DNA from: Pontiellaceae bacterium B12219 | GTDB lineage: Bacteria; Verrucomicrobiota; Kiritimatiellia; Kiritimatiellales; Pontiellaceae | Direction of reading: 5' to 3' | DNA length: 35,483 bases | NCBI GenBank assembly: GCA_029432795.1 | Contig: JARNMJ010000047.1 | Coordinates: 1 to 35,483 of the forward strand | Shown here: piece after piece, positions 70-13,227 of the stretch | How positions within the stretch are numbered: the first letter of the stretch is position 1 | Layout: the number at the start of each line of letters is the position of its first letter | Notes under the pieces: generated by a model | Databases searched by the model: none | What the model was told of the DNA's origin: nothing | Seen by the model: the letters and a program-made list of their open reading frames with translations, nothing else | Made by a program: the position numbers and the translations under genes

Positions 70-183
70 CTCGCCCCCGTATTTGATGGAGAGCCAGTTT
101 TTACACCTTTCCTGCAAACCATCTACATAGCGAGTGCAGAGACCCTGCAGGCTACGAACGCCCGTTTCTGATCTGGCTAGCAT
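46..183 (-). CDS. small phage ORF, 45 aa, unknown function
   Basis: The ATG at 183-181 overlaps the 3' end of the tape-measure gene by 32 bases in another frame and reads 45 codons to TAG at 48-46. I recognise no family. The product is basic and mixed in composition, with a central YVDGLQERCKNWLSIKYGG stretch that looks like real protein. There is no obvious Shine-Dalgarno, so it would depend on coupling to the tape-measure gene. Its stop lies within the hairpin that hides the next gene's ribosome-binding site, which suggests a coupling or leader-peptide role. It could also be a chance open frame. Confidence 0.4.
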   Translation of the reverse strand: MLARSETGVRSLQGLCTRYVDGLQERCKNWLSIKYGGEGDLRLLR

Positions 184-2218
184 TCGTTGCCGTTCTGTTT
201 GAAAGATTTTCTATGGCCTGTTGTTGTGCCGCCATGTGCTGAATTGCCTGCCGAAGTGTTTGTTCGGATGCCGCAAGGTATGTCTTCAGCAATTCGTTCT
301 GTTTTTGAACTGCCGCTGTAACCCCGGAATCATCCAGACGCACATGACCCGGTTTCCAATCATCGGGCCCCACGTGCCCAGGTTTCCAGTCGTCAGATCC
401 AACATGACCCGGTTTCCAATCATCGGGCCCCACGTGCCCAGGTTTCCAATCATCGGATCCAACATGACCCGGCTTCCAGTTATCCGATCCAACCTGACCG
501 GGTTTCCAATCATCGGAACCGACGTGACCCGGTTTCCACTTTTTAGGCTGATCTTGAACAGATCCTAGACTAGAACTGCCGCCGTTTTCTCGCGAAGCTG
601 CTTGGTTCAATTGAGATGCTGCCTGCTCAAGATGACTGGCAGCATTATCCAATCGGCTACTGCTAGAACCTTCTCGTTTTTTAAGTTGCTCCTGTTCCAG
701 CTCTTGAAGCCTCTGTTCCCAGAGCTTCTTTTTATTCTGGTTGTAGCTTTCCTCAAAATTGAAATCTACGCCTGTAGTGTTCTTTACGGCCTCGCCTACC
801 TTCTCGAGATTCATATCCAGATCGCTCCGAAGATCGGAGACGGTGGATTTCATTCCATCGGCGAAATTCTTCAGCGCGCTTTCAACCATGCGCCCATCCA
901 TTTGTCCGGCGAGTTGCGCTTCCTTATCTTTTCCAAGGTCACCGTCATTGATGGCCCCCATTAGCAACCCCTTGAATTCATCGCCGGAAACATTGGGCAT
1001 ACCGTTCAGAAACTCATTTGAGTAGACGCCGTTATCCACCAGATATTTCCGGGCGTCCTCATTCGACATATTACCAACCGCATTAACTGCTGCCTTTTTT
1101 CGGGACTTGCCCATGCCCGGAATATCGAGTTTCAGCAACTCTTCCTTAATCACGGATACGATGGTGATGCCAACCAGCTTCCAGATCTCCAATGAAGCCT
1201 TGATGGCAGCAACCAGTCCTTTAAAAAGAGAATCCACGATATTCACGATCACTGCGTTGACGATTCGCCCGAAACCAGTGCCACCGGTCGCCAGATTATC
1301 CTGGATAATTTTCGATGCTTCCTGAGCGGTCTGGAACGCGGCAATAACTTTGATCCGGGCGCTCTCGACATGCTGATTGATCTTCTCACCAAACTTGGTC
1401 AGGTTGTTTCCGGTTAGAGCCTCGATCAGATCATCAATCACCCGCTTAACCGCTGGGAGGAACTTTTCGCCAAAGTCTGCCTTAAACAGATCGAAGGCAC
1501 CCTTAAGGGTAGAAAGCTTGCCATTGAACGTGGCGCTCATTTCCTCCAGGCCGCCGCCAAACTTTTCGATCATGATTTCCATCAACGCTGCCTGCGCCTG
1601 CTCGAAGCCGGTTGCAGAAATCTCCTGCGACTGCTTCATCTTGTCTTTGTATTTGAAGAGGAAGCTATCGCCCTGGCGTTCGAGCATGATTCCCAGACCC
1701 CGTAACGGCTCCGTTTCCAAGCTTTTTAGCGAGGATGCCACATCCAGGATATTCTTATTCAACGCCGCCGCTGTGGTGGCCACGGCCTCGACGGCTCCTT
1801 GCCCTTCGATACCAACACCTTCCAGGGCAACGCGGGTTTCAACAATCTCCTGGGGAGAAAACGGGGTTTTAGCCGAAAACTGCACGCTCTCTGCAAAAGC
1901 CTTGTCGGCCTCTTCCTTGGTGGCCATGACGGCCTTAAGTTGCGTTCGTAGCGTTTCCATTGAGGCAGCGGACTTGATGCTCGATGCAGCGAACGCCGCG
2001 AAGATCCCACCGCCCGCACCGATTACCGCCATGAATATTTTCAGCGGTCTCAGCAGCGCATCCAGTCCCTTCTTGAGTTTGGCAAAGGAGGCGACGCCGG
2101 TACTCCCCATCCCTTTAATAATAGAGGTCAGTTTTTTAAAGCCGACTGTAGCTTTGGTTAAGCCTGTTCGATCGAAAAGTGATTTCAGATAGATTCTGAT
2201 CTCATTTTTATTGCTCAT
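152..2218 (-). CDS. phage tail tape-measure protein
   Basis: 688 residues from the ATG at 2218, which has GGAG eight bases upstream; an in-frame ATG further upstream lies inside the preceding gene and has no such site. Tape-measure proteins span the tail lumen, set tail length and help DNA entry. Supporting features are an N-terminal helical region, a hydrophobic Gly/Ala segment (about residues 55-85, LLRPLKIFMAVIGAGGG), a motif region KTPFSPQEIVETRVALEGVG, a second long hydrophobic stretch (about 315-355, VNIVDSLFKGLVAAIKASLE), a coiled-coil region near 540-600, and then seven tandem 10-residue repeats (WKPGHVGSDD type) before a final helix. It is short for the family, as for Mu-like tails. 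It overlaps the upstream excisionase-like gene by 11 bases. Assignment rests on architecture and composition, not on a catalytic motif. Confidence 0.75.
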   Translation of the reverse strand: MSNKNEIRIYLKSLFDRTGLTKATVGFKKLTSIIKGMGSTGVASFAKLKKGLDALLRPLKIFMAVIGAGGGIFAAFAASSIKSAASMETLRTQLKAVMATKEEADKAFAESVQFSAKTPFSPQEIVETRVALEGVGIEGQGAVEAVATTAAALNKNILDVASSLKSLETEPLRGLGIMLERQGDSFLFKYKDKMKQSQEISATGFEQAQAALMEIMIEKFGGGLEEMSATFNGKLSTLKGAFDLFKADFGEKFLPAVKRVIDDLIEALTGNNLTKFGEKINQHVESARIKVIAAFQTAQEASKIIQDNLATGGTGFGRIVNAVIVNIVDSLFKGLVAAIKASLEIWKLVGITIVSVIKEELLKLDIPGMGKSRKKAAVNAVGNMSNEDARKYLVDNGVYSNEFLNGMPNVSGDEFKGLLMGAINDGDLGKDKEAQLAGQMDGRMVESALKNFADGMKSTVSDLRSDLDMNLEKVGEAVKNTTGVDFNFEESYNQNKKKLWEQRLQELEQEQLKKREGSSSSRLDNAASHLEQAASQLNQAASRENGGSSSLGSVQDQPKKWKPGHVGSDDWKPGQVGSDNWKPGHVGSDDWKPGHVGPDDWKPGHVGSDDWKPGHVGPDDWKPGHVRLDDSGVTAAVQKQNELLKTYLAASEQTLRQAIQHMAAQQQAIENLSNRTATNASQIRNGRS
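329..538 (-). repeat. seven tandem 30-bp repeats in the tape-measure gene
   Basis: Seven copies of a 30-bp unit encode Trp-Lys-Pro-Gly-His/Gln-Val-Gly/Arg-x-Asp-Asp/Asn. Trp codons recur exactly every 30 bases (538, 508, 478, 448, 418, 388, 358). Units alternate between Ser and Pro at position 8, which suggests duplication of two-unit blocks. The array lies between a coiled-coil region and the terminal helix. Confidence 0.9.
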
Positions 2219-2447
2219 GTGTATTTCTCCATCTATGGCCGAACGTTTTCTGCACGAAGGCTGAGGAAACCGGAAGAATGCGCCAATACGCCCGAGGTGC
2301 GGTTGGAGTTGCAATATTAACCGCTGCCAAGGTCCCGTTCTGGCAAAACTCTAAAACAAGCTTTCTCTCGGTCCTTAGTAAAGAAGTTGCCTGGCTGACC
2401 GTTAAAAGCTTCTTATGTTGCTTAAAACGCCGATCACCCTTTCGCAT
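2208..2447 (-). CDS. excisionase/AlpA-like helix-turn-helix protein
   Basis: 79 residues with a very good Shine-Dalgarno (AGGAGG, about 8 bases before the ATG). The pattern LLTVSQATSLLRTERKLVLE, then FCQNGTLAAVNI, AYWRI and a final helix fits the winged helix-turn-helix seen in excisionases and AlpA-type regulators (x-L-T-hxxAxxLL...G-x-L-x-A...WRI). This kind of domain binds DNA and usually acts as a directionality factor or transcription activator. The end overlaps the tape-measure start by 11 bases, implying translational coupling. Finding it next to a tail gene is unusual and suggests mosaic assembly. Similar domains occur in the early operon (6063-6796), so it may be a paralogue of those. 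Its DNA target is unknown. Confidence 0.6.
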   Translation of the reverse strand: MRKGDRRFKQHKKLLTVSQATSLLRTERKLVLEFCQNGTLAAVNIATPTAPRAYWRILPVSSAFVQKTFGHRWRNTHEQ

Positions 2448-3222: not shown

Positions 3223-3453
3223 CTAGTCCTCCTCGCCCTCCAGGGGCATTGAAACATCAAACCCATATTCATCATCAATAGTCATTACCCGCTCGAAGGT
3301 ATCATTATCGAGTTGAGCATTATTCAACCAATCAAAAAAACAACCGGTGGTTGGTTTTTGAAAAGTGACACCGCTCCCTTTTTCAATCCATGGAAGGCGG
3401 CATGCGCGGAGGATTTTATATTGCTCACACTGTGGGCATTTTAAAAGTGACAT
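3223..3453 (-). CDS. small zinc-ribbon-like protein (CPQC), paralogue of the gene at 2529
   Basis: 76 residues with MSLLKCPQCEQYKI at the N-terminus, a middle part including EKGSGVTFQKPTTGCFFDWL, and a very acidic C-terminus (IDDEYGFDVSMPLEGEED). One CxxC pair and one further Cys are visible, so a metal site is plausible but incomplete. The start codon lies within a GTGACA/TGTCAC inverted repeat and lacks a good Shine-Dalgarno. It is the first gene after the repressor (stop at 3508) and is followed two bases after its own stop by the membrane-protein gene. The acidic tail could suggest a DNA-mimic or partner-binding role, which is speculation. Confidence 0.55.
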   Translation of the reverse strand: MSLLKCPQCEQYKILRACRLPWIEKGSGVTFQKPTTGCFFDWLNNAQLDNDTFERVMTIDDEYGFDVSMPLEGEED

Positions 3454-3513
3454 ACCTTGTCACTATTTGGTGCTGGCTGAATAAATATTCAACCGTCGAA
3501 CTTTTTTCTACTG
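3412..3513 (-). repeat. duplicated regulatory/start module, copy 2
   Basis: Partner of 2733-2832. It begins in the stop codon of the repressor gene (CAGTAG) and ends in the zinc-ribbon gene starting at 3453. The start-codon inverted repeat is AAAAGTGACA (3443-3452) against TGTCACTATTT (3458-3468). The upstream palindrome is degenerate here compared with copy 1. Confidence 0.8.
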
Positions 3514-4251
3514 GTCTTCCGACAATGATTCTGCCCCCTTCTCTAGTAGGTCCAGCATCCGCGCAACGTCTTCCGAGAAACCTTCCCTCGCCTTGTTTTT
3601 ATCAAGCCTATATTTGTCATAAGCTTCTTGTCCGCCCATACCATCAATCAAATGAAGGTAGCATGTATTGAGAAGTAATCTATATATCTTAATAAGCTCA
3701 GGGTCGCTTTGATCAGGAAACTCTGGTCGGGGGTCCAGCACCTTTAAAACATACTGGAGCATATTCCAGAGTTGCCAGGCATTCTGCCCATCTTGGTAAA
3801 GGACCATTTCTATGTTTTCAAAAAAATCCTGCCTTAAGGATGGAGATTGTTCCTTGGCCAAAAAAACTCCGAAATAGTCCCGGAATACATCTAAAAAACT
3901 GCGCGATTGATCTACATTAACCAATTCGGGTATTGAAGTCCAATTTTGGTAGCTTCGCAAACTTCCTTCACCCGTTGCCAACCACCATTCACTAATGATG
4001 AATACTCGCGCCATTTGAACGGCCATGCCAAAACTCAAAACAGTTCGCCCGGTTTCTAGGTTCGCCAATTTGCTACGAGAAATCCCCAATGGTATTGCAA
4101 AGTCAGGTTGCGTAAATCCGAGAAAGTCTCGCACTTTTTTTATTCTTTTCGCAACATCTAGACCTAATGGATTTAGATTTTCTATGAGTTTTGAACACAT
4201 GCTTTTATAAATAGCAGAATCACTAGACAAATAAAAAGTGATATTTATCAT
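3508..4251 (-). CDS. XRE-family helix-turn-helix repressor of the prophage
   Basis: Up to 247 residues. An XRE helix-turn-helix lies at about residues 33-85 (VAKRIKKVRDFLGFTQPDFA, then IPLGISRSKLANLETGRTVL), with the typical FTQ...LGIS...L..LE.GR pattern. The C-terminal 150 residues are helical, with no visible Ser-Lys LexA-type protease site, so induction would not be by simple autocleavage. The first ATG (4251) lacks a Shine-Dalgarno and is only six bases from the operator; an internal ATG at 4200 leaves the DNA-binding domain intact and may be the true start. It diverges from the Ner-like gene across a perfect palindrome, the arrangement of a lysogeny switch. The role as immunity repressor is inferred from domain and position. 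Confidence 0.75.
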   Translation of the reverse strand: MINITFYLSSDSAIYKSMCSKLIENLNPLGLDVAKRIKKVRDFLGFTQPDFAIPLGISRSKLANLETGRTVLSFGMAVQMARVFIISEWWLATGEGSLRSYQNWTSIPELVNVDQSRSFLDVFRDYFGVFLAKEQSPSLRQDFFENIEMVLYQDGQNAWQLWNMLQYVLKVLDPRPEFPDQSDPELIKIYRLLLNTCYLHLIDGMGGQEAYDKYRLDKNKAREGFSEDVARMLDLLEKGAESLSEDQ

Positions 4252-4256
4252 GTTGC

Positions 4257-4277
4257 ATTACACGTCTAACGTGTAAT
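4257..4277. promoter_or_regulatory. operator palindrome between repressor and early operon
   Basis: Perfect 9-bp arms ATTACACGT and ACGTGTAAT flank CTA in the 38-bp gap between divergent repressor and Ner-like genes. A rightward promoter may overlap it: TTGCAT at 4254 and TAATAT at 4275 (15-bp spacing, short). This would place transcription start almost at the ATG at 4290. Binding by one or both neighbouring proteins is inferred. Confidence 0.75.
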
Positions 4278-4289
4278 ATAAACCTTCTT

Positions 4290-4511
4290 ATGAGCAATTC
4301 ATTAAAGATTATGCTGGCTGCTAATGGATTATCCCTAAAGGGGCTTGCCGAAAGAACGGGCTATAGCTATGGGCACATCCTGAATATAAGCAGCGGATCG
4401 CAAAAATCGCCGAAAGCTCGCCGAAAAATCGCCGCAGCACTCGGAACGAAACCTAGCTCGATCTGGACCGATCTCGAAACCGAAACCTCAACAACGAAGA
4501 GCAAAGTATGA
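4290..4511 (+). CDS. Ner-like helix-turn-helix regulator
   Basis: 73 residues, mostly one helix-turn-helix domain: LKIMLAANGLSLKGLAERTG, YSYGHILNISSGSQKSP, ARRKIAAALGTKPSSIW. This fits small XRE/Ner-type proteins, which in Mu turn down early and repressor transcription by binding the intergenic operator. It is the first gene of the early operon and starts 12 bases after the operator. No Shine-Dalgarno is present, so translation may be leaderless. Its ATGA overlap with the next gene (start 4508) shows coupling. Function is inferred from fold, size and position. Confidence 0.65.
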   Translation: MSNSLKIMLAANGLSLKGLAERTGYSYGHILNISSGSQKSPKARRKIAAALGTKPSSIWTDLETETSTTKSKV

Positions 4512-5041
4512 ACGTATGTAATCGCACTCTCCCCCCATTGGATACATGCATAGCCGATATGGTTATTTTGGATGCCGCTGATGTGGCTCAACTATTCCGT
4601 CTGGAAGCAGACATCCAAGAGGAATCATTCTATGCTCTTCTACTGGATGACGAATTCAACGCATTGCAGCTATTTCCTATTTCCGTAGACATCGCGATGG
4701 AAGTCGCCGATCACGATTGCGCCAAACTTGGACTTACTGCGCCATCCAACGTCGCAGCCATTATTCTTGTACACAACAAGCCTTCCGGAGATTTGGAGCC
4801 GACAAAATTAGATAGTTATTTCGCAGGTAATCTAGCGAGGTATGCCCATTGGCGGACGAATTCGCCTGTCTTGGATCATGTCATAATTGGCCCGAACCCC
4901 ACCGGAAACACAGGCTATCGCAGCCTAAGGCGGGATAACTTCGATTGGATCTTTGGGAGCAAAAAGGCAGCAACAAACTACCTAGGAATCCCCTGGGATA
5001 CTTTTGAATCAACAGATGAAATAACCAATAAGGAGCAATAA
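4508..5041 (+). CDS. RadC-like JAB/MPN-domain protein with degraded metal site
   Basis: 177 residues. The C-terminal half matches the RadC signature: IILVHNKPSGDLEPTKLDSY for the usual HNHPSG...PS..D, followed by SPVLDHVIIGPNPTG for LLDHIIIG. RadC-family proteins have a JAMM-type zinc site (HxH and Asp). Here the second His is Lys (HNK), while the first His, the PSG turn and Asp remain. Hydrolytic activity is therefore doubtful and a binding role is possible. The N-terminal 80 residues are unlike standard RadC. RadC-like genes are common on mobile elements, with unknown role. It overlaps the Ner-like gene (ATGA). Confidence 0.65.
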   Translation: MNVCNRTLPPLDTCIADMVILDAADVAQLFRLEADIQEESFYALLLDDEFNALQLFPISVDIAMEVADHDCAKLGLTAPSNVAAIILVHNKPSGDLEPTKLDSYFAGNLARYAHWRTNSPVLDHVIIGPNPTGNTGYRSLRRDNFDWIFGSKKAATNYLGIPWDTFESTDEITNKEQ

Positions 5042-5043
5042 TA

Positions 5044-5205
5044 GTGAGCGATAAATATATGATTGCGGTGTCAACAAACTACGCAGAGCTATCCGGCAAT
5101 GTGAACCGCCTGATTAATCAGGGGTGGACCCCGTTAGGCGGGGTCAGTGTAATTTCGACGGGGAGTGGAGCGCTCCAGGTAGCTCAGGCCCTCTCTCGGA
5201 AATAA
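5044..5205 (+). CDS. DUF1737-like small protein (GTG start)
   Basis: 53 residues from GTG at 5044, two bases after the RadC-like stop, with AAGGAG eight bases upstream; an internal Met at residue 6 is a less likely start. The pattern YMIAVSTNYAELSGNVNRLI, NQGWTPLGGVSV, then an Ala/Gln-rich end fits DUF1737 (x-V-x-x-L-I-x-x-G-W-x-P-x-G-G-V), a short domain of unknown function often found in phage and accessory genes. Two perfect DNA hairpins (5109-5122 and 5127-5145) lie inside the gene, over the most conserved codons. Confidence 0.65.
   Translation: MSDKYMIAVSTNYAELSGNVNRLINQGWTPLGGVSVISTGSGALQVAQALSRK
5109..5145 (+). promoter_or_regulatory. two adjacent perfect inverted repeats within the DUF1737-like gene
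   Basis: CCTGATTAATCAGG (5109-5122) is a 14-bp perfect palindrome. Four bases later GACCCCG (5127-5133) and CGGGGTC (5139-5145) form a 7-bp GC-rich stem with a five-base loop. As RNA the second is a stable hairpin in the middle of a coding sequence; no U-run follows. It may be a binding site, an attenuator or chance. Confidence 0.4.
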
Positions 5206-5230
5206 CCAAACAAACGTAAGGAGATAGATC

Positions 5231-5854
5231 ATGCCCAATAAACGGCTGAATGGACGCCTAGATGCCGTCAAGGTGTTCATAAAAAAATCAAATGCGGAAA
5301 AGTCTAAGCTGACGGAGTGGCTAAATAAATACAATGAACTGTTGGTTGAGTTGGATGAGCTGGAGCAAATGAAAGGAACGCTGCCTCAGGAAATCGATGC
5401 CTTGCTCTCTTCAGGAAAAATGGACAATACAACCATCGAGTTATTAGCGAAAAAACGCGCCCACCTGGATCTTCTTCCTGCAAGGGAGGATAAAGTCTGC
5501 GAGGCCATTGAGGTGCTCGATGGAGAGTTTGAAGAGGCCTCTGCGGTTATTGAGAACACCATTCGGTCCGCCTGCACATATTATTATGATCTCCAGATGG
5601 AGGCTGCCATAAATGACCTTAAGCAACTTGGCGTATCTGAAGAAGTTGCAAAAAATCAGGCGCTCTTACGGGATGATATTCGTAGTATAGATCCCTATTG
5701 TGCCAATGCCTATTGCGCTTCAGGCGTCGGTTTTGGGGGAAGTGCTGAAAGGGCCCGCCGTCTCCTCTGGGTATTCGAATCCTTTGAAGCGGGATATCAC
5801 CCGCGCTCGAAAGAGTCGGAAAAGTTCCAGAAAAACTGGGTGCCCGCTTCCTAG
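5231..5854 (+). CDS. coiled-coil phage protein, unknown function
   Basis: 207 residues with a good Shine-Dalgarno (AAGGAG, seven bases before the ATG). Residues 1-115 are strongly helical and charged (LTEWLNKYNELLVELDELEQ, KKRAHLDLLPAREDKVCEAI), consistent with a coiled coil. The C-terminal part has YCANAYCASGVGFGGSAERA, with two Cys and a Gly-rich stretch, then RRLLWVFESFEAGYHP. I do not recognise a family. Position in the early operon between the DUF1737-like gene and a structured RNA suggests an accessory early function. It is the last coding sequence before the putative RNA and terminator at 5902-6050. Confidence 0.7.
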   Translation: MPNKRLNGRLDAVKVFIKKSNAEKSKLTEWLNKYNELLVELDELEQMKGTLPQEIDALLSSGKMDNTTIELLAKKRAHLDLLPAREDKVCEAIEVLDGEFEEASAVIENTIRSACTYYYDLQMEAAINDLKQLGVSEEVAKNQALLRDDIRSIDPYCANAYCASGVGFGGSAERARRLLWVFESFEAGYHPRSKESEKFQKNWVPAS

Positions 5855-5901
5855 TCTAAACGCTCACAATGCTCTATCTAAATTTAATTGGTAAATAATT
5901 T

Positions 5902-6050
5902 ATGGTTGGCCGGGGACCCCTCCCGCCTTCGAACAGCAGCGATCTCCTGGTAATTTGTCACTGTTGTAGGGTGGCCGGTTTCCACCCCGGAGGAAGGCTC
6001 AGAGCTTTGCATCTTTCGGCTGAGCTGTTCCCGGCCAACCATTTTTTCTT
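5902..6050 (+). ncRNA. candidate structured small RNA with intrinsic terminator
   Basis: In the 208-bp gap between two early genes, ATGGTTGGCCGGG (5902-5914) pairs perfectly with CCCGGCCAACCAT (6030-6042), extendable to 16 pairs with one G-U, and TTTTTTCTTTT follows at once. Inside are GCCTTC/GAAGGC (5925-5930 with 5993-5998), AACAG/CTGTT (5932-5936 with 5961-5965), GGGTGG/CCACCC (5969-5974 with 5982-5987) and CTCAG/CTGAG (5998-6002 with 6020-6024). Closing stem, nested branches and terminal U-run make a compact RNA of about 145 nt. The layout does not match 6S RNA (single long hairpin), and no reverse transcriptase suggests a retron. Alternatives are an elaborate terminator/attenuator in the operon or a tiny inverted-repeat element. 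There is no protein-coding potential of note. Confidence 0.65.
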
Positions 6051-6062
6051 TTCTACTAGGCT

Positions 6063-6536
6063 ATGCTTAAACCAAAACAAAACATACACGGCTTTATTAT
6101 TCCGAATTCGGATAAGATTTCTCCGCTTACTGCAGCCGGTGTATTAGACTGTTCGCGCGATCATGTCTGCCACTTGATTCATCACGGCGAGCTTAAAGCG
6201 GACAACGCCTCAACTACCCAAATTTCACGATGGGAAATTTCCCGAACCGCACTGATTGATTTTATCATTGCGCGCACCACGATTGCTGAAGAAAATATAG
6301 ATACTTCGAACAGGGCAAGGTTTGATGGTCTTTTGCCTGAGTTCCGCATCATGGATGCACACGTGGTCGCAGACTTTCTGCAGTGTTCGCACTCACACAT
6401 ACTCAACCTTATTCAGAGTCGTAAAATTACCGCAACTGATCTTGCTGTGCGCTGCAACAGTAAACGTAAGTGGTTAAGAATCACCAAAGACTCCCTTACA
6501 GCCTTTATTGTATCAAATCTTGAGGGGGATTATTGA
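6063..6536 (+). CDS. double excisionase-like helix-turn-helix protein
   Basis: 157 residues containing two similar DNA-binding units: about 19-70 (ISPLTAAGVLDCSRDHVCHL, IHHGELKAD, SRWEISRTALIDFI) and about 97-152 (MDAHVVADFLQCSHSHILNL, IQSRKITATDL, KRKWLRITKDSLTAFI). Each matches the excisionase/AlpA pattern: helix-turn-helix, a short hairpin and a W-x-I wing. Such tandem proteins may bridge two DNA sites. The gene begins 12 bases after the U-run of the candidate RNA and overlaps the next gene (TGATG). Role in transposition control or early regulation is inferred from domain and operon. Confidence 0.65.
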   Translation: MLKPKQNIHGFIIPNSDKISPLTAAGVLDCSRDHVCHLIHHGELKADNASTTQISRWEISRTALIDFIIARTTIAEENIDTSNRARFDGLLPEFRIMDAHVVADFLQCSHSHILNLIQSRKITATDLAVRCNSKRKWLRITKDSLTAFIVSNLEGDY

Positions 6537-6796
6537 TGAACGCGAAAACTGTTTTCCGGCCATCCAAGCCTTCTGCATGCCGGGGCAATATGCTGAGCGT
6601 GCATAGGATTGCGCAGCTCCTTGATCTGCCTTCAACAGAAATACGCTATGCCATTGAGTCTGGGAAACTGATTGCCATCGATATTCGAGGCATTGCTTCC
6701 TCCCGTCCAGAATACCGTGTGTTCAAATTCAGTTATACCGCCTGGCAGCAAAGCATGCAGGCTTCCGACAATTTCCAACCCGCAGAGGTCGCATAA
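6536..6796 (+). CDS. excisionase-like helix-turn-helix protein
   Basis: 86 residues from ATG 6536, which shares its A with the upstream TGA; GAGGGGG lies nine bases upstream. A TTG at 6533 would add one residue. The pattern MLSVHRIAQLLDLPSTEIRY, AIESGKLIAIDI, EYRVFKFSYTAWQQ resembles the units of the preceding gene, suggesting duplication. It is probably a DNA-binding accessory factor. The stop TAA overlaps the next ATG (TAATG). Confidence 0.6.
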   Translation: MNAKTVFRPSKPSACRGNMLSVHRIAQLLDLPSTEIRYAIESGKLIAIDIRGIASSRPEYRVFKFSYTAWQQSMQASDNFQPAEVA

Positions 6797-7299
6797 TGGC
6801 AAACCGAAAAACATGGCAGCAGCGTCAGGCAGAACTGAAAAAAGATGCGATTGTTGAAATTCTGAACCGTCCTAAAGGTGAATCGGTCCTGGCTTCCATA
6901 AGGCGCATATCTGCGGCGTATAATGGCAAGCGCCTGCCGGATAACAAACGCCTCCGCCTTTCTGTCAGAAGCCTGATCAGGATTTGGTATTTGTGGAAGA
7001 AAAATCCCGTCGATTCCGTTTTTGATGTAAATTATGCAGGCCCTGAAGTTCAGCCCAGCATTGCCCCGTGGGCAAAGCTACTGATTGTTGAATTTGCAGT
7101 AACGCACGGCTTTACCATTCCCCAGGCCCATGCACGACTCAGCAAAGCCGTTCCTGATCTCCCTTTTTGTGAACGCACCCTGCGCCGCCATATATCCGAA
7201 GCGGACCGAAAACGAATTGCCAAAGCGATCAAACTTAAAAAAGGGAAAGCGGCCCTGGTCCGGGAAGAAGAAGTGTTGAATGCGGGAGGCTTGCAGTGA
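6796..7299 (+). CDS. DNA-binding protein resembling a transposase N-terminal region
   Basis: 167 basic residues: ILNRPKGESVLASIRRISAA, LRLSVRSLIRIWYLWKKNP, then PWAKLLIVEFAVTHGFTIPQ, ERTLRRHISEADRKRIAKAI and a Lys-rich end. The layout of two helical DNA-binding regions with a Trp-rich linker is reminiscent of the site-binding domains of Mu-type transposases without the DDE core, but I cannot name a family. It overlaps neighbours on both sides (TAATG and GTGA). It may bind element ends or act as a regulator. Confidence 0.5.
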   Translation: MANRKTWQQRQAELKKDAIVEILNRPKGESVLASIRRISAAYNGKRLPDNKRLRLSVRSLIRIWYLWKKNPVDSVFDVNYAGPEVQPSIAPWAKLLIVEFAVTHGFTIPQAHARLSKAVPDLPFCERTLRRHISEADRKRIAKAIKLKKGKAALVREEEVLNAGGLQ

Positions 7300-7556
7300 G
7301 TTTTGCAGCCAAACTTAAAAACGCTCAAATTTTGCCTGTGTGGCCCTTTTTGTTTTTATGCACCTCAATGATCGCTGAAAACCAGAAAAGAGGTTTGCAG
7401 AAAATTGCAGGGCGTGCAGGAGGTATCCTGAAGCCGATGGCCGTGCGCTTGTTGGCCGGGTGCACCAATACCCCTCGATTGTTTGAACTACCTACCAAGA
7501 CGGCGGCTCTATATAAGGAAAAGAAAAAGCAGGGAGGATATATCCATGACCGATAA
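7296..7556 (+). CDS. small phage protein, unknown function
   Basis: 86 residues from GTG 7296 (GTGA overlap with the previous stop), with GGGAGG about eight bases upstream. There is one short hydrophobic stretch near residues 12-26 (ILPVWPFLFLCTSMI), then a basic region (KRGLQKIAGRAGG, KEKKKQGG). It overlaps the next gene by 11 bases. It is not recognised. The hydrophobic plus basic layout could fit a small membrane-associated protein. It could also be a read-through of little meaning, although the coupling signals favour a gene. Confidence 0.45.
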   Translation: MSFAAKLKNAQILPVWPFLFLCTSMIAENQKRGLQKIAGRAGGILKPMAVRLLAGCTNTPRLFELPTKTAALYKEKKKQGGYIHDR

Positions 7557-7848
7557 CGCACCTCCGGTACATTTTAACAGTCCCATCATCCAACGGGCCG
7601 CCGAGAAGGCCGGGCTTCCGATCACCGAATTTATTGAATATTGCGTACTGCAAATGATCCGTATTCAGGAAGTTGAACCCGCTGAATTTTTGATGCTTGA
7701 TGGTTCAACGCCCTGGGAGCGGCTGCAAAACGTGCGATTCTCTATCAACTTCTTCGAACGCTATAAAAAGCTCTGTCCGGAAAATCAGGCCACTATGCGT
7801 GAGCAGTTTCCTGAGACCATTTTCCCCGCCACAGAGGAGCAGTCATGA
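7546..7848 (+). CDS. small early protein, unknown function
   Basis: 100 residues from ATG 7546, chosen over an upstream in-frame ATG (7483) because GGAGG stands eight bases before it. N-terminal helices (IIQRAAEKAGLPITEFIEYC, VLQMIRIQEVEPAEFLMLD) are followed by WERLQNVRFSINFFERYKKL. There is no recognisable catalytic motif; the first 40 residues have a weak ribbon-helix-helix flavour. The stop overlaps an ATG (ATGA at 7845) that opens a doubtful frame in the structured RNA region. Confidence 0.6.
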   Translation: MTDNAPPVHFNSPIIQRAAEKAGLPITEFIEYCVLQMIRIQEVEPAEFLMLDGSTPWERLQNVRFSINFFERYKKLCPENQATMREQFPETIFPATEEQS

Positions 7849-8087
7849 AAATAAGAGACGGTTCCATCCTTGACTTTTTCGCCCATTTTGAAATCTTAAA
7901 AAACGTCTCCGCAAAAGACCCACATAGAAATTCCAAACACACGCCTTTTGGCCTGTGCTCATTTGCGCCCTCGGGCGCAGCACTCCTATGTAGTGTCTTT
8001 TGCGGGGATGAGTGCAGGCCTCTTTTTGTAGCTGGACCGCAAACCAGCGAAGTGGCCTGCGAGACTAAACATAGGAGAGTCTCATGA
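7845..8087 (+). CDS. doubtful 80-codon ORF over a structured RNA region
   Basis: ATGA overlap with the upstream gene supports initiation here, and the first 25 or so codons look protein-like (MKIRDGSILDFFAHFEILKN). The remainder (Cys- and Pro-rich, ending CETKHRRVS) coincides base for base with several perfect stems at 7904-8083, so its sequence is better explained by RNA structure. A short leader peptide followed by structure is another option. It overlaps the next start by four bases. Confidence 0.25.
   Translation: MKIRDGSILDFFAHFEILKNVSAKDPHRNSKHTPFGLCSFAPSGAALLCSVFCGDECRPLFVAGPQTSEVACETKHRRVS
7904..8083 (+). ncRNA. candidate structured RNA or leader before the 8084 gene
   Basis: A 16-pair stem (two G-U) joins 7904-7919 to 7995-8010, with CCGCAAAAGAC/GTCTTTTGCGG perfect at its core, and continues inward as ACATAG/CTATGT (7922-7927 with 7986-7991). 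It encloses a bulged hairpin: GTGCT/AGCAC (7955-7959 with 7979-7983) plus GCGCCC/GGGCGC (7965-7970 with 7973-7978). A second domain is GCAGGCC/GGCCTGC (8014-8020 with 8054-8060) around GCTGG/CCAGC (8031-8035 with 8044-8048). Finally GAGACT/AGTCTC (8061-8066 with 8078-8083) loops out the AGGAG of the gene at 8084. It could be a stand-alone RNA or a cis-acting translational control leader. No U-run terminator follows the main stem. Confidence 0.55.
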
Positions 8088-8461
8088 AGCATGACACGGA
8101 AGCAGCAATACCGAAAACCTTCGACAGACCGTCAATGAAATCGCCTGAATGTTCCGGCAAGAAGCATAGCACATTATATCTTTCATTCCCGGGAGAGGAG
8201 TATTCAGTCGAGTTCCCGGAAGCAAAGGCCGCTGCATACCTATTTGTAGCCGACATTATCGACAAGCAAATCAACTGCCGTGGTCTGGGCAATGCTTTTT
8301 CTAACATTAATGCCCTTGCCGAATTGATAGAACACCACCCCCATTTGCAGGAAGAGGCAAAGGTATTCAGGCAGTTATTTGAGGCATCAAAAACCCTAAT
8401 GGCGATTCCCGAAATTGCAGATAAACTTATTTCATACAGAAAAGAGGAGGAAGCGTCATGA
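8084..8461 (+). CDS. small early protein, first of a paralogue pair
   Basis: 125 residues; AGGAG six bases upstream lies in the loop of a six-pair hairpin. The N-terminal half (LYLSFPGEEYSVEFPEAKAA) looks beta-rich, the C-terminal half helical (NAFSNINALAELIEHHPHLQ, KVFRQLFEASKTLMAIPEIA). The helical half resembles that of the next protein, including spacing, so these are diverged tandem duplicates. The ATGA overlap with the next gene implies coupling. There is no known family. By position, just before the transposase, one may think of transposition accessory or immunity functions, but nothing shows this. Confidence 0.6.
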   Translation: MKHDTEAAIPKTFDRPSMKSPECSGKKHSTLYLSFPGEEYSVEFPEAKAAAYLFVADIIDKQINCRGLGNAFSNINALAELIEHHPHLQEEAKVFRQLFEASKTLMAIPEIADKLISYRKEEEAS

Positions 8462-8847
8462 GCACTCAGCCTAATAAACAGCAAAAAGAACGTGGTAAGA
8501 ATGACCGTCAGGAAAAGGCCCTCGAAACCTCTTCATTGCCGAAAAAGGAAACCGTAGTTCATCCCTTTATGGAACGCCTTTTCTCAGCAGATCTAAGGGC
8601 TGTCCATGGACCAACCTTCGGCGATTTATGCAGCGACTCTGTTGAGGGAGAACATCATTTCCTCACATTAAACCTTGATCGCATATTCGCCTTGAATGAT
8701 TGGGACCACATCTTCTGCAGTCTGATGGACCTTGAGTCTGTCATCCGCTATTGCCCGAAACTTAAAAACGAAGCCGGTGCTATTCGCGCCCTGATCGAAG
8801 CCGAAAAGGTTCTCGGCGATTTCTGCCGCGCCGTTAAAGCCTGCTAA
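8458..8847 (+). CDS. small early protein, second of a paralogue pair
   Basis: 129 residues with a hydrophilic, Lys-rich N-terminus (about 1-35) and a C-terminal helical region, DHIFCSLMDLESVIRYCPKL then EAGAIRALIEAEKVLGDFCR, comparable to the end of the preceding protein (aspects: F-x-x-L-x-x-L-x-x-x-I, P-x-L-x-x-E-A, L-x-E-A-x-K-x-L). It ends five bases before the transposase ATG. Unknown function; probably acts with its paralogue. Confidence 0.6.
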   Translation: MSTQPNKQQKERGKNDRQEKALETSSLPKKETVVHPFMERLFSADLRAVHGPTFGDLCSDSVEGEHHFLTLNLDRIFALNDWDHIFCSLMDLESVIRYCPKLKNEAGAIRALIEAEKVLGDFCRAVKAC

Positions 8848-8852
8848 TTAAA

Positions 8853-11243
8853 ATGACTACCCACCGCCAAAACCAAACTATGTACACCGCGTCTGAAATT
8901 GCTTCAGCTGCAGGAATGTCGCGGCGGTGGGCATTCAAGGCGCTGGAGGGCATTACGCCCTCCGGCCAGGTGCTGCAGGGCGGCAAGCCCGTTAATGCCT
9001 GGGCCTTCATGGATCTGCCCGGCGATATCCGCGCCCGGCTCGATGCCCAAGCGCAAAAGTTCTGCTTCAAGGATGCAGAGCAGCTGCTGGACCGTGGCAA
9101 GACGCCATGGCAACCGGAAATCCCCTTGCGCGAAATTGCTGATCGCCATATTCAAAAAGCGCACGATCTCAAACGGGCACTGTTGCCGATCCTTGAAAAG
9201 CTGAGCGATCTCGATTCCCTGGCATCGGTTGAGAAACAGGGACTTCAGCTCTATAAAGAAATCTTTGGCCACGCCGTTTCTTCCAGACATTGGAACCGCC
9301 TGATCATGCGGACCTTTAACCGCGATGCCGGGCGCGATGAATTCCAACGGTTGGAAATCTATTTAGACGATAAACTGACCCGCCGCCCGCAAGATAAATC
9401 CAAAGCCACGAAAGCGGCGAAGGATGCTTTTATCGATGCACGGGCCGCCATCGACATGATTGCCAACATCAATAAGCCCACGCCTAAAGAAAAGCTGATC
9501 ATCTGGACCTACGTCCTTTCCGCCGTCGAAGAGCTTATCCAGGGCGGAACACCGGAAAAGGCAGCGAATAAAGCTGCTCTGGAATTCCTAAATGCGGAAG
9601 CCCTATTTATTGCCAAGTCTGCCGATGCGCTTCGGGCAGCTTTTTATCGAAAAGCCAAGGCCTGGAAAAAGAGCGGCGGCAAGCCTTCGGCAATTAAAGA
9701 CCGCAGAAACGAACGATCCGGCAACCATAAACCCGCCCCTTTATCTGAGGAAGATGAAAACACGATCCTGGCCTATACAACCATTGCAGGCGGGCGACTT
9801 TCCCAAGGATGGCGCGAAGCCCGCCGCGCTGGCGCTCTCAGCCCGGAGCTTATGCAGCGCTACATCCTGAATGAACGCGAGAATAAAAGTTATGTCCCCA
9901 ACCCGATCCGCGCGGCCCTGCAGCATAAAGTGAAGATGGTAGATGATCACCACCACGGCCCGCACCGCGCTAAAATGCAAGGCGCATTCCTGGAGCGCGA
10001 TCCGAGCTCCATCCATTCCGGGGACTGGTTCCAAGGCGATGATACGACTTTGCCGATATATATCCACAACGAGAAAGATCCGCGTAAGCCCACCCGTGGA
10101 CAGTTCCTTATGATGGTGGACGTGCGCACCGGCTTCATTCTCTCTTACGTCATGATTGCCGATAAGGCTTACAATGGTCGCGATGTTCGCAACCTCATCA
10201 CCGTTACGCATGACCGGTGGGGATTGCCCCGAAAGGGATTTTATTTCGAGAACGGAATTTGGCGGGCAAAGACCGTGAAGGGCGGCATTGCCTGGGCCGA
10301 AACGGAGGCGGGCCTAATGTCGGAACTGAACCTTCGTTTTCAACATGCCCGCGAAGCCCGCGCCAAGATTGTGGAACGAGCTTTCGGTTTGCTGCAAAAC
10401 TACTGCGAACGCATTCAGGGCTATGTTGGCCGCGATGAACGTCACGATCACTACGAGAAGATCCAGAAGCAGCTTCAGTCCGTGCGCGGTGGGAAAGTGC
10501 CAAGCGTCGAAATGCTTTTGACACAGGAAGAACTTTGCCAGGCACTGGACTGGATTATCGATCAGGTAAATAATGATGTCCAGAATGGTAAGCTTTGCCC
10601 CGGCCTGACGCCCGAAGAAGCCTACACGAAATACTTCAACTTTAACGACCCGTTGACCCAGCTAGGCCGTACCACCCGCTATCTGTTGGCTGATTCCGTC
10701 GAAAAGGTAACCGTTGGCCGGAATGGAATCAGCCTGCTACGCGGCAAGGATCGCTTCACCTATAAGAGCGAGGAAACCGGGAAACGGCAGGGCATGGAAG
10801 TACTGGCCTGGTTCAGCCCCGAAAATCCGGAAATCCTTTGCGTAACTGATTTAAAGAAAAAGAACCCCTTCACGGTCGAACGCGCCCAGGCCGTTCCGCT
10901 TATGGATGCCGACCCCGACTTGCTCGATCAGGAGAACAGCCGGAACGCAACGCACAACAATTATGGAAAGCGCCTCTATAAGGCCGTCAAACAACGCTTC
11001 CCGGATGAACTACGCGACCGCATGTTCCGACCGACCTACGTCGATGAGCAAACCGCCGAACTTGGCCTGGAAATGGAACACCAACGCGCAGAAGCCGAGA
11101 AATCGAAAAAGAAAACGACCAACCAGAAAAAGAAAATTGCCAAGGGCGGATTCAAACCCTCCCCCATCGCCGAACGCCGTAAAGAACAGGAAAAAGCCGC
11201 ATCCAAGGACAGCGAAGTCCTGGAAATGTTGAGGAACCTATGA
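8853..11243 (+). CDS. MuA-like DDE transposase
   Basis: 796 residues. Residues 10-62 (YTASEIASAAGMSRRWAFKA ... PVNAWAFMDLP) match the Mu-type winged-helix DNA-binding domain. A helical site-binding region follows to about 380. The RNase H-like core has the first acid in GDWFQGDDTTLP (Asp391 or Asp396/397), MMVDVRTGFILSYVMI as the second strand, FYFENG (Glu466) where most members have DNG, and KIVERAFGLLQNY (Glu508) as the last acid. The beta-barrel region and a Lys-rich tail, probably for ATPase contact, complete the protein. It cuts element ends and joins them to target DNA. The Shine-Dalgarno is weak. The next gene overlaps by four bases. Glu in place of Asp in the second motif deserves an alignment check. 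Confidence 0.9.
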   Translation: MTTHRQNQTMYTASEIASAAGMSRRWAFKALEGITPSGQVLQGGKPVNAWAFMDLPGDIRARLDAQAQKFCFKDAEQLLDRGKTPWQPEIPLREIADRHIQKAHDLKRALLPILEKLSDLDSLASVEKQGLQLYKEIFGHAVSSRHWNRLIMRTFNRDAGRDEFQRLEIYLDDKLTRRPQDKSKATKAAKDAFIDARAAIDMIANINKPTPKEKLIIWTYVLSAVEELIQGGTPEKAANKAALEFLNAEALFIAKSADALRAAFYRKAKAWKKSGGKPSAIKDRRNERSGNHKPAPLSEEDENTILAYTTIAGGRLSQGWREARRAGALSPELMQRYILNERENKSYVPNPIRAALQHKVKMVDDHHHGPHRAKMQGAFLERDPSSIHSGDWFQGDDTTLPIYIHNEKDPRKPTRGQFLMMVDVRTGFILSYVMIADKAYNGRDVRNLITVTHDRWGLPRKGFYFENGIWRAKTVKGGIAWAETEAGLMSELNLRFQHAREARAKIVERAFGLLQNYCERIQGYVGRDERHDHYEKIQKQLQSVRGGKVPSVEMLLTQEELCQALDWIIDQVNNDVQNGKLCPGLTPEEAYTKYFNFNDPLTQLGRTTRYLLADSVEKVTVGRNGISLLRGKDRFTYKSEETGKRQGMEVLAWFSPENPEILCVTDLKKKNPFTVERAQAVPLMDADPDLLDQENSRNATHNNYGKRLYKAVKQRFPDELRDRMFRPTYVDEQTAELGLEMEHQRAEAEKSKKKTTNQKKKIAKGGFKPSPIAERRKEQEKAASKDSEVLEMLRNL
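9342..9356. repeat. iterated palindrome TTCCAANNNTTGGAA, prophage copy
   Basis: Exact copy inside the transposase gene (codons for Phe-Gln-Arg-Leu-Glu). A one-mismatch copy lies 61 bases upstream (9281-9295). The same palindrome occurs eight more times, exactly, in the chromosomal part of the window. Confidence 0.8.
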
Positions 11244-12763
11244 GCAGCACACGTAAAGCCGACGGCAGCCGCCCGCTCCGACAAGAACGCTACGCTTCTG
11301 ACCCGGCCTTTAACGAAGGCCTGAAAGCCAGTACCGTGGCGCGAAAATGCGGAGTATTCTCCAATCCAGTCCATAAGGAACTTGCGCTGCATCTCCAATT
11401 CATTTCAATGCAACCGGGTGGCCTATCCGTCTTTGTTTCTGATTTTCTGACCCGCTACGGCGACCGAATCGGCAGCAAAGCTATGCGCCGGAACCTTCAC
11501 ATTAAAACGTTTAATGCGGATCAGGTGCGCCAAGTACGGGATGAACTCGGGTGCGCCAAAGATCAGTTCCCCCTGAAAGGGGAATGGATCGGATCGCTTT
11601 GGGAAGGCCCAATTCAAGATAATTGGGAGGACGACAACGACTTTGAATACCGGATGGATAATTGGCGGAAAGAAAAGAACCGTGAGGCAGCCAATAACCC
11701 CACGAGCTATCCCGCCCAAGCCATTATTGATCACTGTATGGATCAGGCTGAGTCCTGGCTTGAACAATGGTTCATAGATTTTTGCCTGGATCCAGCAGTA
11801 AGCCTTGATTTCCCGCCCGGCTGGTTCCATGAAATTGAAAGCTCTCTGACTGACTACTTCAATGACCGGCGCATCGACACGTTGGCCGGGAAGGTAGTGA
11901 CCTCTATAGGGGAAGAAATCAATGACGCCCTTGATTATGCCTGGGAAGAAAAAGTTCTGGTCCATATCAACGGAGTTGCCCGCATGGGCAAGACCTATCA
12001 GGTAAAGCAATGGTGCAACGCCCATCCGGGCCGCGTGCGTTATGTCCAGGTCCCTTCCGGAAATGATGACATAAGTTTTCTTCGCGCTATCGCCCGCGCC
12101 CTGGGCACCGCTTCAGGCAGTGCCATGAAAACAACACAGATCAAACGACAAATTGAAGATGCCATTCAGGATTCAGGCATCATGCTTGTTTTTGATGAGG
12201 CACATTATCTATTCCCCCAATATAAAGACGTTCGCAGCTCTCCGCGCCGGATTAACTGGCTGCTGACCGAAGTGGTCAACAAAGGAATTCCCGTTGCAAT
12301 CATCACCACCCCGCAATTTGATATGTCGCAAAAAGCCATTGTGAACGGATCTGGATGGGCAGATGAGCAGCTCACAGGCCGCATTGCGTTCCGCCTTGAT
12401 CTTCCGCCTGTACTGCCAGCTGAAGACCTGACAGATATAGCAAAACACTATTTTCCGGAAGCATCCAAAGAAGTATCAGGAATCCTTAGTTGGTACGCCC
12501 ACCGATCCGGCAAATATCTGGCAGGCCTTGAAGCCGTTTCCAAACGCGCCCGTTTTCTGGCCCGCAAAACAGGAAGAAGCTCCCCGAACGGGTCAGACCT
12601 GAAGGCGGCAATGACTCAGGTTGATCCGGCCATTGCAGAAATTTTTAAACAGAATAAAGAACCTCAGAAACAGATTAAACAACCGGCAATAGAAAAGCCG
12701 GTTTACAAACCCTCTGCACGACCAGTGCAGGCCACTTGCGAGAAGACTGCAGTAACCGCGTAA
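11240..12763 (+). CDS. MuB-like AAA+ transposition ATPase
   Basis: 507 residues. Walker A at 245-252 (GVARMGKT) and Walker B at 316-320 (VFDEA) followed by HYLFPQ identify a MuB/TnsC-type AAA ATPase, which selects target DNA and activates the transposase. Arg-rich sensor regions follow (SSPRRINWLLTEVVNKG, TGRIAFRLDLPPVLP). A Lys/Pro-rich tail ends the protein. MuB is 312 residues; here about 230 residues precede the ATPase core. Residues 23-45 (AFNEGLKASTVARKCG) could be the usual small helix-turn-helix, but much of the remaining N-terminus is new to me. The start overlaps the transposase stop (ATGA), and the gene ends the operon. Confidence 0.85.
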   Translation: MSSTRKADGSRPLRQERYASDPAFNEGLKASTVARKCGVFSNPVHKELALHLQFISMQPGGLSVFVSDFLTRYGDRIGSKAMRRNLHIKTFNADQVRQVRDELGCAKDQFPLKGEWIGSLWEGPIQDNWEDDNDFEYRMDNWRKEKNREAANNPTSYPAQAIIDHCMDQAESWLEQWFIDFCLDPAVSLDFPPGWFHEIESSLTDYFNDRRIDTLAGKVVTSIGEEINDALDYAWEEKVLVHINGVARMGKTYQVKQWCNAHPGRVRYVQVPSGNDDISFLRAIARALGTASGSAMKTTQIKRQIEDAIQDSGIMLVFDEAHYLFPQYKDVRSSPRRINWLLTEVVNKGIPVAIITTPQFDMSQKAIVNGSGWADEQLTGRIAFRLDLPPVLPAEDLTDIAKHYFPEASKEVSGILSWYAHRSGKYLAGLEAVSKRARFLARKTGRSSPNGSDLKAAMTQVDPAIAEIFKQNKEPQKQIKQPAIEKPVYKPSARPVQATCEKTAVTA

Positions 12764-12790
12764 GGCGGAAGACAGGATAAATTTTGAACT

Positions 12791-12815
12791 CCGCTCTCTG
12801 AGCGGGGGCTTTTTT
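12791..12815 (+). terminator. intrinsic terminator of the early operon
   Basis: CCGCTC (12791-12796) pairs with GAGCGG (12800-12805) across TCT, followed by GGGC and six T. It lies 28 bases after the ATPase stop. Confidence 0.75.
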
Positions 12816-12832
12816 GTGCCCAAAGGTTTCGG

Positions 12833-12865
12833 ACATTTCGCCGCTCATTCTGTTACATTTTATCG
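12833..12865 (-). promoter_or_regulatory. paired direct repeats, likely transposase sites at the right end
   Basis: ACATTTCGCCG (12833-12843) and ACATTTTATCG (12855-12865) match at 8 of 11 bases and are exactly 22 bp apart, two helical turns. Read on the minus strand, CGATAAAATGT resembles the CGATAAATG part of a Mu end site. They lie between the operon terminator and the first host gene, where the element end must be. No left end is available for comparison, so the exact terminus and target duplication cannot be fixed. Confidence 0.45.
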
Positions 12866-12897
12866 ACTTAGATACAGCTCTCTACTCAACACTTCAT

Positions 12898-13227
12898 TTA
12901 AGGATGAATGAGCGCATCCAGTTTGGCGGCACAGATGAAGTCGTTTTCTGAAAGCCCGCCGATGGCATGGGTGGTGTAAATAACCCTGCAGGTTTTATAC
13001 CCCACCAACAGATCCGGATGATGATCCTCCTGATGCGAGATATAGGCCGAAGCATTCACGAAAGCCATGGTCTGATAATAATTCCGAAATTCGAAGGTCT
13101 TCTCAATTTCTGAACCGGTGCGTGCCCATCCATCAAGCTCGCTCAGCATACGATCGGCTTCATCCGCAGACAGCGGCTTCACACCGCCTTCGCACGGTTT
13201 GCATTTTTTATCGGTCAGACTGCTCAT
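12898..13227 (-). CDS. phhB: pterin-4a-carbinolamine dehydratase
   Basis: 109 residues; ATG 13227 chosen because AAGGAG lies seven bases upstream, while a GTG at 13233 is too close. The family signature is clear: ISHQEDHHPDLLVGYKTCRV, with the HxxDHHP active-site motif, and VIYTTHAIGGLSENDFICAA at the end. The enzyme dehydrates 4a-hydroxytetrahydropterin, recycling the cofactor of aromatic hydroxylases. No hydroxylase gene is nearby, so it may act in general pterin repair. The N-terminus carries a small Cys pair (KKCKPCEGG) seen in several bacterial members. It is the first host gene after the prophage and shares its strand with the hydrolase upstream (44-bp gap). Confidence 0.9.
   Translation of the reverse strand: MSSLTDKKCKPCEGGVKPLSADEADRMLSELDGWARTGSEIEKTFEFRNYYQTMAFVNASAYISHQEDHHPDLLVGYKTCRVIYTTHAIGGLSENDFICAAKLDALIHP

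Follow-up and report, generated by a model that had tools for sequence, protein, structure and literature searches.

A structured orphan element and a neighbouring covariation-supported RNA family in the early operon of a Mu-like phage from Kiritimatiellota

The early operon of a Mu-like phage in the window (35,483 nucleotides of contig JARNMJ010000047.1 from Pontiellaceae bacterium B12219, analysed as a whole) holds a new covariation-supported RNA family, E2/E3, at 7904-8065, and, 2 kb upstream of it in the same operon, another structured element, E1. E2/E3 is a new RNA family whose covariation is specific though drawn from few sequences; E1 is a real non-coding, intergenic structured element but an orphan, since the sequences searched contain no homologue with compensating changes, and on its own it is a fold of modest interest. 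As E1 and the shared, covarying E2/E3 lie in one operon, these phages probably use RNA switches for early-gene control. No regulatory RNA of Kiritimatiellota phages was found described in literature searches.

The setting had been predicted as the early operon of a transposable phage, with the structure between two early genes, and the repressor, Ner-like, MuA-like and MuB-like genes bear this out. The c-type repressor gene (3508-4251, minus strand) is followed by a Cro/Ner-like gene (4290), a RadC-like gene (4508), the gene at 5231 and E1; after E1 come an excisionase-type HTH gene (6063), a further HTH gene (6533), genes at 6796 and 7546, and E2/E3; and after E2/E3 come the genes at 8084 and 8458, a MuA-like gene (8853) and a MuB-like gene (11240). 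The neighbours of the two elements and the transposition genes are:

5231..5854, plus strand: early gene upstream of E1, coiled-coil-like, of no family, with a homologue in the Kiritimatiellales MAG G028
6063..6536, plus strand: excisionase-type HTH gene downstream of E1
8084..8461, plus strand: gene right downstream of E2/E3, its ATG overlapping the stop of ORF 7845-8087 (ATGA)
8853..11243, plus strand: MuA-like transposase, towards the operon end
11240..12763, plus strand: MuB-like AAA ATPase (PHROG 296)

The MuB-like protein matches the PHROG entry "DNA transposition protein"; the MuA-like transposase matched no Pfam model, but three other Kiritimatiellia genomes encode relatives of it, full-length or nearly so, at 82, 43 and 39% identity. 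The early regions of Mu, D3112 and B3 share the order of repressor, Ner-like gene, early genes, and A and B, but their annotated genes lie nearly end to end, and gene A is preceded by no non-coding gap comparable to those of the window operon. Such a gap does not always carry a long stem: two of the four in the window operon have none. Similarity to G028 ends near 12876, just past MuB, and host-type genes come next (window 12700-12900), which places the transposition genes at one prophage end and the tail genes on the repressor's other side. A tape-measure-like protein is encoded at 152-2314 (minus strand); close to its C-terminus, a 10-residue repeat (WKPGHVGSDD) occurs about seven times in tandem. 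Two small paralogous ORFs between this gene and the repressor, at 2529-2783 and 3223-3453 (minus strand), carry a CPxC motif (MSLLKCPQCEQY).

E1 itself comprises the following parts:

5902..5917, plus strand: 5' arm of the closing stem (sequence, fold, inverted-repeat scan)
6027..6042, plus strand: 3' arm of the closing stem (sequence, fold, inverted-repeat scan)
6043..6053, plus strand: T-rich tract right behind the stem, TTTTTCTTTTC (sequence)
5933..5967, plus strand: internal hairpin H1, ACAGCAG/CTGTTGT, arms 5933-5939/5961-5967 (centroid fold)
5969..5987, plus strand: internal hairpin H2, GGGTGG/CCACCC, arms 5969-5974/5982-5987 (centroid fold; paired differently in the MFE structure)
5997..6025, plus strand: internal hairpin H3, GCTCAG/CTGAGC, arms 5997-6002/6020-6025 (sequence; fold in part)

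The long closing stem predicted at 5902 stands: ATGGTTGGCCGGGGAC (5902-5917) pairs with GTTCCCGGCCAACCAT (6027-6042) in 16 pairs, one of them G-U, around a loop of 109 nt. When the gap 5855-6062 was shuffled 1000 times in a strand-symmetric inverted-repeat test, no shuffle scored as high, and the stem is the top inverted repeat of 3300-12850, the 9.5-kb phage early region. The predicted U-run, TTTTTCTTTT, follows directly 3' of the stem, the final arm base T6042 lying already in the T-run. The stretch 5890-6065 (176 nt) has an MFE of -65.9 kcal/mol (z -3.0), a stability equalled by 0 of 200 dinucleotide shuffles, and the folding energy of the E1 DNA is almost the same on either strand. A multi-branched core with three hairpins, as originally predicted, is the centroid-type fold, whereas the MFE structure pairs the interior otherwise; thus, only the closing stem is firm, and the three hairpins are plausible. 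The element is non-coding as expected, the spurious ORF 5902-6147 that crosses it matching no protein family. It also fits no small-RNA class in Rfam, which gave no match to E1 at the gathering threshold, no credible weak match and none at E<=10; at the gathering threshold the whole window yielded a single tRNA, with no 6S RNA, retron msr-msd or Mu-gpT-DE. No second copy was found in the host genome.

Relatives of E1 were sought widely. No DNA match occurred among 96 related genomes, no instance of the exact-stem pattern in IMG/VR, and no homologue of E1 or E2 in phage and plasmid records. For the phage as a whole, searches of IMG/VR via MuA, the MuA pair and the repressor found no homologues, and the only relatives in GTDB 220 contigs were G028, G064 and G094. 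As these searches gave no homologue to examine for compensating changes, the predicted new RNA class is unproven at the E1 coordinates, while a fold absent from Rfam and a positional, not sequence, equivalent in G028 are confirmed. In G028, the gap between homologues of E1's two flanking genes holds a 14-bp perfect stem, TGGTGGCGGGCAGG/CCTGCCCGCCACCA (L013 4428-4441/4496-4509; z -3.95, 0/1000 shuffles), with a second stem-loop upstream of it. The two sequences are not alignable, so the likeness is positional and architectural and homology is unproven; the U-run behind the G028 stem is much weaker than that of E1, being only UCUUUAAG, and a terminator role is thus not conserved there. A possible P1-like abutting partner of the G028 stem (4355-4364/4486-4495) had p 0.014 before correction as one of eight tests, and is a hint only. 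An internal segment of the same L013 gap, UUUCCGGGC (4482-4490), is complementary to GCCCGGAGG (4517-4525), where the HTH gene that follows has its ribosome site (p 0.06).

More distant Mu-like phages also carry long stems in early non-coding gaps, at 9817-9894 in G064 (6/1000 shuffles) and at 6900-6972 (57/1000) and 9849-9908 (1/1000) in G094; U-rich tracts lie behind both of these G094 stems, as behind E1 and E2. Tandem long-stem elements occur in the early-operon gaps of G064 (L015 9641-10106) and G094 (L016 6620-7125 and 9797-9924), the arm CGGCATCCGGC is common to two G094 stems, and the G064 arm 10052-10066 can alternatively pair with a ribosome-site-like stretch at 9931-9945. At four Mu-like loci from other Verrucomicrobiota classes, where gene calling is crude, no comparable clean non-coding stem was recognised.

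The strongest evidence for RNA in this operon comes from E2/E3, which the original prediction missed: the covariance check proposed for E1 found no homologue there and is clearly passed by 7904-8065. Its features are:

7904..8010, plus strand: E2, closing stem P1 (7907-7919/7995-8007) around P2 and P3
7950..7962, plus strand: S2a, 5' strand of the covarying helix Palt
7964..7979, plus strand: P3 hairpin, loop CUCG in the window and UUCG in both homologues
8008..8020, plus strand: S2b, 3' strand of Palt, adjoining P1 without a gap
8021..8030, plus strand: invariant TCTTTTTGTA behind Palt
8014..8060, plus strand: E3 stem-loop (GCAGGCC/GGCCTGC, inner GCTGG/CCAGC), Palt's rival for S2b

In a sliding fold scan with 25 shuffles, 7881-8010 reached z -6.9; for the fold of 7845-8095, z is -6.2. 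Searching DNA across the class turned up a stretch 74% identical to E2/E3 in the same-genus genome G004, where it sits in an unrelated, tailless-phage-like element that encodes a PM2-type coat-protein domain. A further copy, on the IMG/VR contig L076, was reached through the invariant word GGCCTCTTTTTGTA...GCAA; it is flanked by a tyrosine integrase and by a BRO-N domain whose first half is missing. The RNA directly adjoins this truncated domain (L076 1670-1881, profile positions 58-96 only), as though an antirepressor gene had received the RNA module by insertion or fusion. A further 16 IMG/VR matches to the GCRGGCCTCTTTTTGT motif lack the closing stem and were discarded as chance. The copies lie at window 7904-8065, L070 8256-8412 and L076 1575-1745, and each folds as a P1 closing stem with P2 and the P3 hairpin inside. 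The genes flanking E2/E3 in the window and in G004 are unrelated to each other, and the downstream ones are not recognisable antirepressors; the RNA thus moves independently of its neighbours. Neither the window nor the G004 copy matched Rfam at E<=5.

Searching the three sequences jointly for pairings revealed a further helix of 13-14 bp, Palt (7950-7962/8008-8020). On alignment A10, which holds these three sequences only, all 42 cells of its 14 columns are paired (100%), with double-sided changes in 6 of 14 pairs, or 5 once one gap-shifted column is dropped. Across the whole structure, 12 of 39 pairs show double-sided changes, a count reached by 0 of 500 shuffles, and 89% of cells are paired, a share that falls to 41-53% once the pairing is slid by 1-3 columns. 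The 3' strand of Palt begins in every copy at the base after P1 (10-13 bp), with neither gap nor overlap, and is followed at once by UCUUUUUGUA; this family layout was found at window 7905-8030, L070 8256-8379 and L076 1575-1701, and with the covariance model R1 the three members score 118-140 bits. Nested folding favours P1 over Palt by 7-20 kcal/mol, so Palt would be a pseudoknot with P1, an intermolecular antisense-target pair or a transient terminator. Both Palt strands have other partners, in P2 and in the E3 stem, which suggests that E2/E3 may be a switch between alternative pairings.

An open frame runs through the element (7845-8087), with an ATGA overlap with the upstream gene at its start and with the downstream gene at its end, recalling orf45/icd. 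A coding reading was rejected: the G004 substitutions are spread over codon positions (17/13/15), the gaps break the frame, and no protein family matches. The layout of E2/E3 recalls the C4 antisense RNA of P1/P7 (c4-icd-ant) and IsrK of Gifsy-1 (isrK-orf45-anrP), although membership is not claimed (PMC4825925; PMC12197685; PMC8201110). All are phage-borne structured RNAs with a U-tract and a segment (S2a in E2/E3, kept by covariation) complementary to one just downstream (S2b); shared too is a small frame, variable in its protein sequence, that overlaps the following start with its stop (ATGA), as reported for orf45/anrP (PMC4825925). An antirepressor-type BRO-N domain lies directly downstream in one of the three E2/E3 copies, the IMG/VR one only. 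Unlike these RNAs, E2/E3 has no Rfam match, and its 13-14-nt complementary segment adjoins a closing stem of 10-13 bp. E1 has only the stem and U-run in common with C4 and IsrK, with no covarying complementary segment.

For E1, the explanation preferred, tentatively and at somewhat less than even confidence, is a cis element of the phage early transcript acting in attenuation or processing. The GC-rich 16-bp stem would fold as RNA polymerase leaves it; together with the U-rich tract, it would slow a fraction of the transcripts, end them or mark them for cleavage ahead of the excisionase-type and transposition genes, and the regulatory genes upstream and the transposition genes downstream would thereby be expressed at different levels. 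On this view the operon holds several structured intercistronic RNAs, E1 among them; its neighbour E2/E3 may be an attenuator/pseudoknot or an antisense module of the C4/IsrK kind. We infer that E1 is transcribed, that transcripts are terminated or processed there and that downstream genes are affected. In favour of such a cis element are the stem beyond chance, the equivalent gap stem of G028, the gap stems of G064 and G094, the covariation of E2 and the RNase III encoded by the host; against it stand the missing E1 homologue, the weak G028 U-run and the two stemless gaps. Intrinsic terminators and attenuators likewise combine a GC-rich stem with a U-run immediately behind, but the 109-nt loop of E1 is far longer than the short loop of an ordinary intrinsic terminator, the U-run is not conserved in G028, and a terminator scan of 5700-6200 returned no intrinsic terminator, though stem and U-tract adjoin. 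Because E1 lies mid-operon, terminator action would be conditional or partial.

Of the two main rivals, the slightly likelier one, still unlikely, is that E1 supplies the 3' portion of a discrete small RNA acting in trans, a decoy or antisense, whose 3' end is formed by stem and U-run. Phages use C4, IsrK and sar against antirepressor mRNAs (PMC12197685; PMC4825925), the sequence upstream of E1 is AT-rich, and the neighbouring E2 has a conserved complementary segment; but no sigma-70-like promoter was found in 5700-6200, no Hfq gene was found in the host, and the complementarity of E1 or E2 to the rest of their own phage was not above shuffles (E1 p 0.63). That of the G064 E3 to its own phage was marginal (p 0.04, uncorrected).

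Rather unlikely, too, is an RNase III processing stem that divides the early message, as in T7 early mRNA, whose RNase III sites are located in intergenic regions (PMC9135205). E1 resembles such sites as a 16-bp duplex between early genes with position conserved and sequence not, in a host that encodes the enzyme; it differs in its large multibranched interior where the usual sites have short apical loops, and 16 bp is less than two helical turns.

More improbable is that E1 acts or once acted as DNA, as the relic of a small inverted-repeat element or as a protein-binding palindrome. Inverted repeats with T-rich flanks, a single G-U and near-equal folding energies of the strands would fit; against this, E1 is single-copy and without relatives, and the sense strand folds 10-14 kcal/mol better in G064 9970-10075 and in G094 6892-6985, 6976-7060 and 9838-9920. 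Also against it, the clean gap stems, which were selected after the fact, contain G-U and no A-C mismatches. E1 as a mobile repeat or MITE was rejected, being single-copy in its own genome and without relatives. Finally, E1 does not belong to the E2/E3 family, and even a divergent membership is very improbable and already largely refuted: despite the same operon, a long stem then a U-run, and the possible abutting P1-like partner of the G028 stem, model R1 scores <=1.2 bits on the E1 interval, and no second helix abuts E1 on either side (p 0.22 and 0.36).

For the phages themselves, a wider picture is proposed that we regard as doubtful: Kiritimatiellota phages may carry modular, horizontally exchanged early-operon RNA switches, with E2/E3 as a new pseudoknot/antisense family that travels among Mu-like, tailless and integrase-bearing elements, and with E1 as a fast-evolving module in slot-like gaps; the two would jointly form an RNA layer of lysis-lysogeny control. 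If true, E2/E3 would be a covariation-supported regulatory RNA of Kiritimatiellota phages, common to three unrelated mobile elements and with a well-defined helix pair, and E1 would be one of several RNA modules between early genes. The RNA control of antirepressors known from P1 and Salmonella prophages may then have analogues far beyond Proteobacteria.
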